DNA of 64,000 nucleotides from Sinorhizobium saheli (GTDB lineage Bacteria; Pseudomonadota; Alphaproteobacteria; Rhizobiales; Rhizobiaceae), in contig NZ_LNQB01000073.1 in NCBI RefSeq assembly GCF_001651875.1, forward strand, positions 124,001 through 188,000. Reading direction: 5' to 3'. The notes under the pieces are model-generated. The model saw only the letters and a list, made by a program, of their open reading frames with translations. It made no database searches and was not told where the DNA came from. The position numbers and the translations under genes are program-made. How positions within the stretch are numbered: the first letter of the stretch is position 1; each line of letters begins with the position of its first letter. Of the stretch, positions 23,123 through 61,180 are shown piece after piece.

Positions 23123-23300
23123 CAGCATTCTCCTGCTGTTACGGGAATAGTCACTTAGGAACGCCGACGGCCGGCGGCAAGGCCACCACCTTTCCGCGAA
23201 GATGAACGGCAGATGAACGGGCATCTCAGCAACAATTCAGTTTGGTTGTGCGAAAAGACGGTCAATCGATTTGAACGTGCTCCAGCCAACGGACAAAACC

Positions 23301-23474
23301 ATGGATATTCTCGCCCGCCGCCTCACCATCATAAGCCTCTTGATGGTCGTCTTCGCGATGACGCTCGCCGCCGCGGTCGGCGCCGATACGGAGCGCCGCC
23401 GCCAGAACACCTACATCGGCTCGCTGACCGATTGCACCGCGCACACGGCGCAATATTGCCAGGCCAAGCTTTAG
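23301..23474 (+). CDS. Small secreted or membrane protein
   Basis: A 57-residue ORF: a hydrophobic segment at about 8-30 (TIISLLMVVFAMTLAAAVGA), then a polar tail with two cysteines (LTDCTAHTAQYCQAKL). It looks like a signal peptide with a short mature peptide, or a single-pass membrane protein. No family is recognised. The ribosome-binding site is weak and the start could be a few codons earlier. Confidence 0.5.
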   Translation: MDILARRLTIISLLMVVFAMTLAAAVGADTERRRQNTYIGSLTDCTAHTAQYCQAKL

Positions 23475-23486
23475 GTCTCTCGCTTG

Positions 23487-23533
23487 TGCATGTCGTGGCC
23501 GCGACGCGGATTCGCCATTACGGGCGACATGCA
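23487..23533. repeat. CATGTCG...CGACATG inverted repeat, copy 2
   Basis: Arms TGCATGTCG (23487-23495) and CGACATGCA (23525-23533) are a perfect 9-bp inverted repeat with a GC-rich centre, related to the copy at 11438-11487. It lies between two small ORFs, immediately before the second one's ribosome-binding site. Confidence 0.7.
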
Positions 23534-23550
23534 TTGAAGGAATCACGGAA

Positions 23551-23724
23551 ATGGCCGCTCTCCTTTCCTCTGCCATTCTTTCGCTCCGGCTCCTGATCCT
23601 CACGGCCCTGCTGATGGCGCCGATCGGAGCGGTCGCCTACACCAAGGCCAGCGGCCTCGGCATCGGCAAGCACGGTGCCGGCCTCGTACTCTTCGTCACG
23701 CTGCAGCGCCAGGCGATGAGCTGA
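23551..23724 (+). CDS. Possible small membrane protein
   Basis: A 57-residue ORF with a strong hydrophobic stretch (LSLRLLILTALLMAPIGAVA at about 11-30) and a shorter one near the end (GAGLVLFVTLQ). GAAGGAA lies upstream. No family recognised. It is supported by hydrophobicity, the ribosome-binding site and a position between genes, so it is tentative. Confidence 0.4.
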   Translation: MAALLSSAILSLRLLILTALLMAPIGAVAYTKASGLGIGKHGAGLVLFVTLQRQAMS

Positions 23725-23765
23725 TCCGCGTCCTTCTCGTCATCCTCTTGCACACCGAATGAAAT

Positions 23766-23793
23766 TCCGGTCCTTTCGCGTGAAAGGACCGGA
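23766..23793 (+). promoter_or_regulatory. Perfect 12-bp hairpin covering the ynfA ribosome-binding site
   Basis: TCCGGTCCTTTC - GCGT - GAAAGGACCGGA. The 3' arm contains AAGGA, the only Shine-Dalgarno-like sequence before the ATG at 23799. No T-run follows, so a normal terminator is unlikely. It may shut translation until the stem opens; the regulatory role is inferred. Confidence 0.6.
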
Positions 23794-23798
23794 CAATC

Positions 23799-24119
23799 AT
23801 GACGGCACTTGCCTTTTATCTCCTCGCCGCCCTTGCCGAAATCGCCGGATGCTTCGCCTTCTGGGCGTGGCTCAAGCTCGGCAAATCAGCATGGTGGCTC
23901 GCACCGGGCATGGGCTCGCTGGCGCTCTTCGCCTGGCTCCTGACGCTGATCGACACGGCTGCCGCCGGCCGCGCCTATGCCGCCTATGGCGGCGTCTATA
24001 TCGGCGCATCGCTTGCGTGGCTGTGGCTCGTCGAAGAGGTGCGGCCGGATCGTTGGGACATGACGGGTGCGGCGGTGGCGCTCGCCGGCAGCGCGATTAT
24101 CCTCGGTGGGCCCCGTTGA
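23799..24119 (+). CDS. ynfA: YnfA family (UPF0060) membrane protein
   Basis: A 106-residue inner-membrane protein with four predicted helices (about 3-25, 30-50, 60-80 and 88-104). [20 protein letters not shown] near 13-32 and [19 protein letters not shown] near 58-76 match the UPF0060/YnfA family, small relatives of SMR multidrug exporters. Export activity is reported for some homologues; the substrate here is unknown. A stable hairpin precedes it and amn follows 72 bp downstream. Confidence 0.9.
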
Positions 24120-24191
24120 CCTCAAAACCGACGATGTGAAAAGCGCCTATCTTGTCGTTTGCTTGTCAGGAGTCGCAGCCTATAATGCGAC

Positions 24192-25694
24192 ATGGACAAA
24201 CGAATCTCTTCAAACTCCGTTCTTTCCACCGTCACTCCTGAACCTTTCGAGCCGCAGTTCTTCGAAGACCCGGCCAGCGCCGTCGATTGCCTCGAGGCAC
24301 TTTACGAGCGCAATACGCGCTTCCTGCGCGAGGCCTTCGAGGGGCTCGGCAGAAGCGGCAAGCCGCTCACCCGCTTCCGTGCCTGCTATCCGCAGGTCGG
24401 CATCGAGACGAGCAGCTTCGGCCATGTCGATTCGCGGCTCTCCTTCGGCTACGTCAGCGCCCCCGGCGTCTATACGACGACGATTACGCATCCGCGGCTC
24501 TTCCGCCACTACCTGAAGGAACAGCTCGGCCTTCTGATGCGCAACCACGGCGTCGGCGTCACGGTGTCGGAATCCTCGACGCCGATCCCGCTCCATTTCG
24601 CGTTCGGAGAGGGCGCCCATGTGGAGGCATCGGCGGCCGAGAGCATCGACATTCCGCTGCGCGACCTGTTCGATGCGCCGGATCTCACGACCACCGACGA
24701 CGAGATCGCCAACGGCTCCTACGAGCCGGGCCCGGGCGAACCGACGCCGCTCGCGCCGTTTACGGCCCAGCGGATCGACTACTCGCTCGCCCGCCTCAGC
24801 CATTATACGGCGACCAGTGCCGCACATTTCCAGAACTTCGTGCTCTTCACCAACTACCAGTTCTATGTCGACGAGTTCTGCGCCTGGGCGCGCCAGCAGA
24901 TGGCGGAGGGCGGCAACGGCTATACGGCTTTCGTCGAACCCGGCAACATCGTCACCCCGGCGGGCGCCGACAAGCCCGACGCGGACTATGCGCTCGCCCG
25001 CATGCCGCAGATGCCGGCCTATCACCTGAAGAAGAAGGGGCACGGCGGCATCACCATGGTCAATATCGGCGTCGGCCCGTCCAACGCCAAGACGATCACC
25101 GACCACATTGCCGTTCTCCGGCCGCATGTATGGCTGATGCTCGGCCATTGCGCCGGGCTTCGCAACAGCCAGCGGCTCGGCGACTACGTGCTGGCGCACG
25201 CCTATATGCGCGAAGACCACGTGCTCGACGACGACCTGCCCGTCTGGATCCCCTTGCCCGCACTGGCTGAGGTTCAGGTGGCGCTGCAGGATGCGGTGGC
25301 GGAGGTGACGGGCTACAAGGGCTACGACCTCAAGCGGATCATGCGCACGGGGACGGTTGCGACCATCGACAACCGCAACTGGGAACTGCGCGACCAGCGC
25401 GGCCCGGTCAAGCGCCTGTCGCAGGCGCGCGCCATTGCGCTCGACATGGAATCGGCGACGATCGCCGCCAATGGCTTCCGCTTCCGCGTGCCCTATGGAA
25501 CGCTGCTCTGCGTCTCCGACAAGCCGCTGCACGGCGAACTGAAGCTGCCGGGCATGGCGACGGCCTTCTACCGCACACAGGTGAGCCAGCATCTGAAGAT
25601 CGGCATCCTGGCGCTGCAGAAGCTCGCGGCAATGCCGCCGGAGAAGCTGCACTCGCGCAAGCTCAGAAGCTTCTACGAGACCTCGTTCCAGTAG
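24192..25694 (+). CDS. amn: AMP nucleosidase
   Basis: A 500-residue cytosolic enzyme that hydrolyses AMP to adenine and ribose 5-phosphate. The N-terminal domain (about 1-190) is the Amn-specific regulatory part (RFRACYPQVGIETSSFGHVD). The C-terminal part is the nucleoside-phosphorylase fold, with NIGVGPSNAKTITDHIAVLR near 290-309, LGHCAGLRNSQ near 316-326 and LDMESATIAANGFRF near 417-431 around the substrate pocket. Length and order fit the family throughout. It converges with the next gene only 10 bp away. Confidence 0.93.
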   Translation: MDKRISSNSVLSTVTPEPFEPQFFEDPASAVDCLEALYERNTRFLREAFEGLGRSGKPLTRFRACYPQVGIETSSFGHVDSRLSFGYVSAPGVYTTTITHPRLFRHYLKEQLGLLMRNHGVGVTVSESSTPIPLHFAFGEGAHVEASAAESIDIPLRDLFDAPDLTTTDDEIANGSYEPGPGEPTPLAPFTAQRIDYSLARLSHYTATSAAHFQNFVLFTNYQFYVDEFCAWARQQMAEGGNGYTAFVEPGNIVTPAGADKPDADYALARMPQMPAYHLKKKGHGGITMVNIGVGPSNAKTITDHIAVLRPHVWLMLGHCAGLRNSQRLGDYVLAHAYMREDHVLDDDLPVWIPLPALAEVQVALQDAVAEVTGYKGYDLKRIMRTGTVATIDNRNWELRDQRGPVKRLSQARAIALDMESATIAANGFRFRVPYGTLLCVSDKPLHGELKLPGMATAFYRTQVSQHLKIGILALQKLAAMPPEKLHSRKLRSFYETSFQ

Positions 25695-61093: not shown

Positions 61094-61139
61094 GCCTCCC
61101 GGCGAAGCTCGTCAGGACCATCCGATTTTTCGAGGATGA

Positions 61140-61180
61140 AACCCTCCGGCCGCCCCGGTGGCGGCCGGAGGGTTTTTTGC
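61140..61180 (+). terminator. Rho-independent terminator
   Basis: ACCCTCCGGCCGCC - 4-5 base loop - GGCGGCCGGAGGGT followed by six T. It ends the transcript of the small gene at 60953. Confidence 0.95.

Follow-up and report, generated by a model that had tools for sequence, protein, structure and literature searches.

The Shine-Dalgarno (SD) sequence of ynfA in Sinorhizobium saheli lies within a perfect hairpin, an arrangement that raises the question of which ynfA transcripts can be translated, and when. The window analysed here is the whole stretch of 64,000 nucleotides containing this locus (contig NZ_LNQB01000073.1, positions 124,001 to 188,000), and it lies in a 6-Mb genome. The ynfA product is a small membrane protein of the YnfA family (PF02694, E 1.1e-31; NF002586 equivalog). 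A preliminary description of the sequence had suggested that translation may depend on opening of the stem by heat, a ligand, a small RNA or a ribosome arriving from the small ORF just upstream. The elements around which the question turns are given below in window coordinates.

23766 to 23777, plus strand: 5′ arm of the hairpin, TCCGGTCCTTTC, which pairs with the SD-bearing arm and holds the proposed -10
23778 to 23781, plus strand: hairpin loop, GCGT, whose length ranges from 4 to 14 nt across relatives
23782 to 23793, plus strand: 3′ arm of the hairpin, GAAAGGACCGGA
23783 to 23788, plus strand: ynfA SD, AAAGGA, inside the 3′ arm, for which the unpaired probability was computed with and without the 5′ arm
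23799 to 24119, plus strand: ynfA, UPF0060/YnfA family, 106 aa

The uninterrupted 12-bp stem with a 4-base loop that had been described was confirmed as TCCGGTCCTTTC-GCGT-GAAAGGACCGGA at positions 23766-23793. The end point originally assigned to it, 23798, is the base preceding the ATG; the stem itself stops at 23793 and is followed by the five bases CAATC and the ynfA ATG at 23799. The AAGGA sequence was likewise found to be unique within the 60 bases before ynfA and to sit in the 3′ arm, and no T-run follows the stem on the plus strand, where the pattern of an intrinsic terminator (a stem and then a T-run) is consequently absent. A terminator on the minus strand was considered and rejected, the sole terminator-like call between 23200 and 24300 being the stem read on that strand (one call, against a mean of 1.2 in shuffled sequences).

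A 12-bp stem alone is unremarkable, because 16 perfect inverted repeats with arms of at least 12 and loops of 3–8 occur in 344 kb of the genome, and four of them lie in the window. Stems of at least 7 bp that contain an SD were found at only 4 of 612 starts in the same 344 kb (a crude set of ATGs with an SD and 60 open codons, on both strands), the stem being 12 bp at ynfA and 7 bp at each of the other three. The unusual feature is the placement of the hairpin over the SD, rather than the 12-bp repeat as such. The local fold, at -21.7 kcal/mol, was equalled by 1 of 82 crude gene starts, and the 136-nt region gave a folding z of -2.8 against shuffles, 3 of 200 of which folded equally well. The exact element, with up to three mismatches allowed, occurs once in the window and in none of 100 shuffles. 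As for a dispersed repeat, a DNA search of the genome with a 221-base region matched only its own place and its own inverted copy, the CTTGC-to-TCC half finding two further places at three mismatches, with CTTGC altered in both; tandem repeats were also searched for and none was found.

Any transcript that contains the whole stem is predicted to have its SD sequestered, as the preliminary description had claimed, with a computed unpaired probability of about 0.001 at 37 °C. The same computation was extended to 46 of 48 loci, L033 and L036 being excluded for having no standard SD. With the 5′ arm present, the SD was less than 0.3 unpaired in 42 of the 46 loci; when the RNA was truncated so that it began 12 bases beyond the T of the TCC, it was more than 0.7 unpaired in 37 of them. 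For the window, the SD of this short RNA was 0.99 unpaired if the RNA ended at the ATG, and 0.45-0.58 unpaired with 30 coding bases added.

The sequence that separates the open from the closed form overlaps a conserved motif, with which we associate the following predicted elements.

23747 to 23752, plus strand: proposed -35, CTTGCA, in which CTTGC is invariant in the alignment; the consensus given in the literature is CTTGAC (PMC2873474, PMC4943231)
23771 to 23776, plus strand: proposed -10, TCCTTT, inside the 5′ arm; TCCTAT in most of the sister genus
23781 to 23785, plus strand: predicted zone of transcription initiation, 5-9 nt downstream of the -10, placed from promoter geometry

In an unselected alignment, CTTGC and TCC were invariant in 25 of 25 rows, within a spacer between ynfA and the upstream gene ORF57 that has otherwise diverged. 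The pattern CTTGC-N19-TCC was present in 49 of 53 sequences, spanning both genera, and in 49 of the 50 loci of the same gene context; the sequences lacking it are L174, of the same context, with TTC for TCC, and three ynfA copies in another context (L177-L179). The distance between CTTGC and TCC was 19 in all 49, in a pattern search that allowed 17-21, and CTTGC stands 48-54 nt before the ynfA start codon in these loci. The 49 motif-bearing sequences comprise 45 distinct ones (L083/L160 and L102/L167 look like duplicates), and because the counts are pattern-based, the presence of TCC in 45 of 45 distinct rows is true by selection. The -10 ends in T in 42 of the 45, and most sister-genus elements read CTTGC...TTCCTAT. 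The motif alone is not rare, with two occurrences in the window against 0.42 expected. Further afield, with starts set mechanically, CTTG[CA]-N19-TCC within 100 nt of the start was found among 25 family loci (L008-L032) only in L027, misplaced at -74, and the motif was found among 80 named-genome loci (L060-L139) only in L069, L073, L083 and L102. The first two are the loci of Ensifer sp. IC3342 and BR816, relatives of which belong to the genus; upstream of ynfA they are identical to L041 and L046, both from the genus. The upstream sequences of the other two equal those of sister-genus loci L160 and L167.

The geometry of this putative promoter, CTTGC plus one base, an 18-base spacer and TCCTWT, may be compared with the rhizobial housekeeping promoter, described as CTTGAC-N17-CTATAT in a passage of PMC2873474, and with the R. 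etli promoter, given as CTTGAC-16 to 23-TATNNT in a passage of PMC4943231. For S. meliloti, a section of PMC3616915 describes the sigma-70 -10 region as poorly conserved and reports 159 upstream regions in which a TTG and an A downstream of it are conserved and RpoD features are otherwise missing, and an upstream sequence starting CTTGCA carries the label 'RpoD promoter motifs' in part of PMC6180224. CTTGC-N19-TCC looks like a rhizobial housekeeping promoter, and we read it as the predicted promoter of ynfA itself. Since the proposed -10 lies in the 5′ arm, the predicted start falls in the loop or in the first bases of the 3′ arm. TCCTTT is a poor match to the -10 consensus, having no A at the second position, and a simple promoter scan did not call the proposed promoter. 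Other candidates were rejected: the ECF motifs in the part of PMC6180224 concerned do not match; the -24/-12 GG..GC spacing of a sigma-54 promoter was sought by eye in two loci; and the A of an ATG at 23759, from which a leader peptide might start, is found in no printed genus sequence other than that of this genome.

Transcripts containing the whole stem would have to come from upstream, where two small genes lie on the same strand.

23551 to 23724, plus strand: ORF57, a conserved 57-aa gene directly upstream of ynfA, the proposed source of read-through
23271 to 23474, plus strand: ORF67, a conserved small gene ahead of ORF57

Pfam and NCBIfam searches with ORF57 gave no match, and the true start of ORF67 may lie further inside its ORF. 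A ynfA match was present in 32 of 33 genus genomes, with some copies broken or partial (L056-L059, G222), and the 30 genus loci were drawn from these 32, G204 and G222 not being included. ORF67, ORF57 and amn accompany ynfA in all 30 genus loci and in 24 of 27 sister-genus loci; ORF57 is directly upstream of ynfA on the same strand in all 30 of the former. ORF67 and ORF57 look operon-like, because the SD of ORF57 abuts the ORF67 stop in clades E and G and in the sister genus. In the window, the ORF57 stop (23724) is 22 nt from CTTGC (23747) and 41 nt from the stem, and no terminator-like site was called on the plus strand from 23200 to 24300.

In L056-L059 ynfA is broken, yet ORF57 and amn are present beside it; ynfA may be dispensable there, because it is broken or partial although these neighbours adjoin it. 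All four broken copies carry the motif, the SD arm being missing in L059, and all four were dropped from the rows counted. The ynfA copies of L039 and L041 each contain one in-frame stop.

With confidence that is about evenly balanced, we regard as the best explanation of this locus a read-through lock, in which a promoter and a lock on the ribosome-binding site would share the same 52 bases. The predicted promoter of ynfA would consist of the -35 CTTGCA, the 18-base spacer and the -10 TCCTTT in the hairpin 5′ arm, and transcription from it would begin in the loop or early 3′ arm, at about 23781-23785. The resulting mRNA would have a leader of about 14-18 nt and no hairpin, so that its SD would be more exposed and the message translated. 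RNA reading in from ORF67-ORF57, with no recognisable terminator before ynfA, would carry both arms, and on such RNA the 12-bp stem would close the SD and leave ynfA untranslated. Expression of ynfA would in this way follow its own promoter and be shielded from the neighbouring genes, and the hairpin would probably act only on the predicted read-through transcripts.

The main rival to this explanation is accident, in which a promoter -10 (TCCT..) and an SD (AGGA) are complementary by chance and the hairpin has no function. Promoter and SD alone would explain the conserved core of both arms. Among 29 folded loci, the base before TCC is paired in 20 (as G-C, C-G, A-T, T-A or G-T) and the second base before TCC in 25 (as G-C, G-T or C-G); the partners were taken from minimum-energy folds, so these counts are biased towards pairs, and a swap test of the arms served as the control. 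When arms were exchanged among eight lineages, 4 of 40320 permutations folded as well as the real arms. With 11 groups represented by one sequence each, the median p was 0.001 (0-0.012), and within the genus, again with one sequence per group, it was 0.016 (0.0004-0.065). A coarser grouping gave a median p of 0.0036 for all loci, 0.018 (up to 0.12) for the genus, and 0.033 (up to 0.17) for the genus without clade E.

The groups for these tests were first drawn by eye and then checked against an amn tree of 35 loci. This tree supported B, D, E and G as clades, left C whole as drawn, and split group A into L003 and L044/L055, matching the division used in the eight-lineage test; subgroups C1, C2, S and T of the 11-group test were not clean clades. 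L046 was omitted from the swap tests, the fold set and the SD computation, with L073, of the same upstream sequence, as its substitute, and L040 was present in the 11-group test and absent from the 25-row alignment, the fold set, the eight-lineage and coarser swap tests and the SD computation. The arms co-vary between lineages, and modestly so within the genus, corresponding to two or three independent changes as judged by eye. The preliminary description had named a lack of compensatory changes in relatives as grounds for abandoning its reading; the co-variation between lineages is the opposite of that. Its second ground was a transcription start mapped inside or after the stem, and a start inside it is what the conserved promoter-like motif would predict.

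The five sequences of clade E keep TCC and CTTGC and have lost most of the outer stem. In the eight-lineage test, swapped arms fitted as well as the real ones for clade E and for L033. Given this result, and the weak stem that accompanies the motif in clade E, not every lineage has the lock; the 5′ arm is also constrained beyond pairing, since clade E retains TCC with little outer stem. An accidental hairpin agrees with the persistence of clade E with much of its stem lost, and with 127 control starts from this genome, 26 of which have an SD less than 0.3 unpaired anyway; as the 46 loci are related, their comparison with these controls is descriptive. Against accident stand the co-variation of the outer pairs and the better fit of own than of swapped arms, the 12 perfect pairs compared with a maximum of 7 at other starts in 344 kb, and the retention of a strong stem on two branches of the amn tree (L003 and L044/L055). 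On balance, we judge a functionless hairpin to be unlikely.

A third explanation, close to the original suggestion, places the start of the main ynfA mRNA ahead of the stem and treats the hairpin as a sensor, opened by heat, a ligand, a small RNA or an upstream ribosome. The closed SD of any transcript containing the whole stem and the co-variation of the stem would both be expected of such a device, and leaders of more than 100 nt precede 1,041 S. meliloti genes according to a section of PMC3616915. The specific switches fared less well. Opening by heat became less likely, the computed unpaired probability of the SD going only from 0.000 at 15 °C to 0.002 at 50 °C, and an RNA thermometer was rejected on this closure of the stem from 15 to 50 °C. 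A known ligand-binding RNA is also less likely, no Rfam element matching here at the gathering score: the only match in the window at that score is a tRNA elsewhere, all others falling far below the cut-off, and a riboswitch or other Rfam leader was set aside. Translational coupling to ORF57 was rejected on the 41-nt gap between its stop and the stem, which makes opening by an upstream ribosome less likely, and on a distance from this stop to CTTGC that ranges from 17 to 128 nt over the 50 loci measured. The spacer between ORF57 and CTTGC is unconserved, and no second conserved start region was seen there. Thus, of the idea that translation depends on opening of the stem, the closure of the SD stands, and its switching by heat, ligand or coupling has lost ground; we consider a sensor rather improbable.

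A DNA operator, in which a dimeric repressor of ynfA would bind a dyad spanning the -10 and the start point, is very improbable: the dyad is perfect in the window and a position over the -10/+1 is typical of repressor sites, but the half-sites differ between lineages (TCCTTTC/GAAAGGA vs CCTTCCT/AGGAAGG), loop length ranges between 4 and 14 nt, which fits RNA pairing and not a two-site DNA operator, and the 221-base genome search matched only this place and its own inverted copy.

The read-through lock has close parallels in phage T4. In the T4 lysozyme gene e, and in soc and 49, the SD is closed by a hairpin on long upstream transcripts, transcripts from late promoters immediately ahead of the gene do not include the 5′ part and are translated efficiently, and in related phages a promoter lies in the region encoding the 5′ strand of the hairpin, as a section of PMC3014915 relates. 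A comparable arrangement is described in part of PMC2988022 for T4 I-TevI, I-TevII, I-TevIII and segB and for Aeh1 mobE, where a stable RNA structure sequesters the ribosome-binding site on transcripts from distant promoters and a proximal promoter omits the structure. From the features described for these systems, the ynfA element is best explained as working like the gene e and I-TevI locks, a membership that is proposed rather than proven. Gene e and ynfA share an SD within a hairpin; to the promoter that phages related to T4 have in the DNA of the 5′ strand would correspond, at ynfA, the putative promoter, whose fixed distances fit and whose -10 is weak. They differ in that gene e has late promoters, a temporal programme, mapped ends and a 100-fold effect, whereas ynfA has a putative promoter of housekeeping type, on a bacterial chromosome, and is known from sequence only. 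The I-TevI group consists of phage homing endonuclease genes, and its likeness to ynfA is one of arrangement, not of sequence.

Other structures that close a ribosome-binding site are less similar. In IS10/IS200, read-in transcripts fold over the transposase ribosome-binding site and the hairpin arms derive from the ends of the element, unlike those of ynfA, which come from the putative promoter. The ROSE and fourU RNA thermometers hold the SD in a stem with mismatches that melts near growth temperature, whereas the ynfA stem is perfect and closed at 50 °C in silico. The relevant portion of PMC8450116 deals with antisense RNAs, and IS200 mRNA structure is mentioned in it only within a cited title.

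Somewhat short of even confidence, we extend the read-through lock to a broader proposal: an alphaproteobacterial chromosomal gene would carry a co-evolving element in which its own -10 also serves as the anti-SD arm of a lock on translation, transcript identity would decide whether ynfA is translated, and two genera would have retained the element, with compensatory change, as terminator-free insulation in compact genomes. If this is true, a phage T4 trick would be in use on bacterial chromosomes and maintained by compensatory evolution. A leader hairpin that covers a ribosome-binding site is often interpreted as a thermometer or a riboswitch; if its 5′ arm contained a promoter, the meaning would be the opposite, insulation in place of sensing, and SD hairpins whose 5′ arm lies about 24 nt after a CTTG -35 offer a rule for rescanning genomes. 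Among the titles and abstract openings listed in a literature search, with subscription journals outside its scope, there was neither an earlier description of a ynfA leader hairpin nor a report of chromosomal read-through locks.

Further sequence features were observed around the upstream genes, among them the following.

23199 to 23255, plus strand: strongly conserved block upstream of ORF67, holding a pair of GATGAAC half-sites separated by 11 bp and followed by TTCAGTTTGG

The block reads AAGATGAACGGCAGATGAACGG...CTCAG...TTCAGTTTGG, its half-sites being direct repeats, and it occurs in two genera, with one or two bases altered in some loci. It could be recognised in all 24 loci printed, which are a hand-picked subset, and has a single match in the genome at up to three mismatches. 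It is a possible regulated promoter of ORF67-ORF57, and may be the box of a response regulator acting on an uncharacterised operon of small proteins. The gap between ORF67 and ORF57 contains an inverted repeat, GCATGTCG...CGACATGC, at 23488-23532, just before the ORF57 SD, which is also found in L044; clade C rows have a different inverted repeat there (GCAATTCC...GGAATTGC), and the gap is almost absent in clades E and G and in the sister genus. Elsewhere, at 61139-61175, stands a perfect inverted repeat (AAACCCTCCGGCCGCC...GGCGGCCGGAGGGTTT) with 16-bp arms and a 5-base loop; among those with loops of 3-8 it is the longest in the window, and it is perhaps a terminator.
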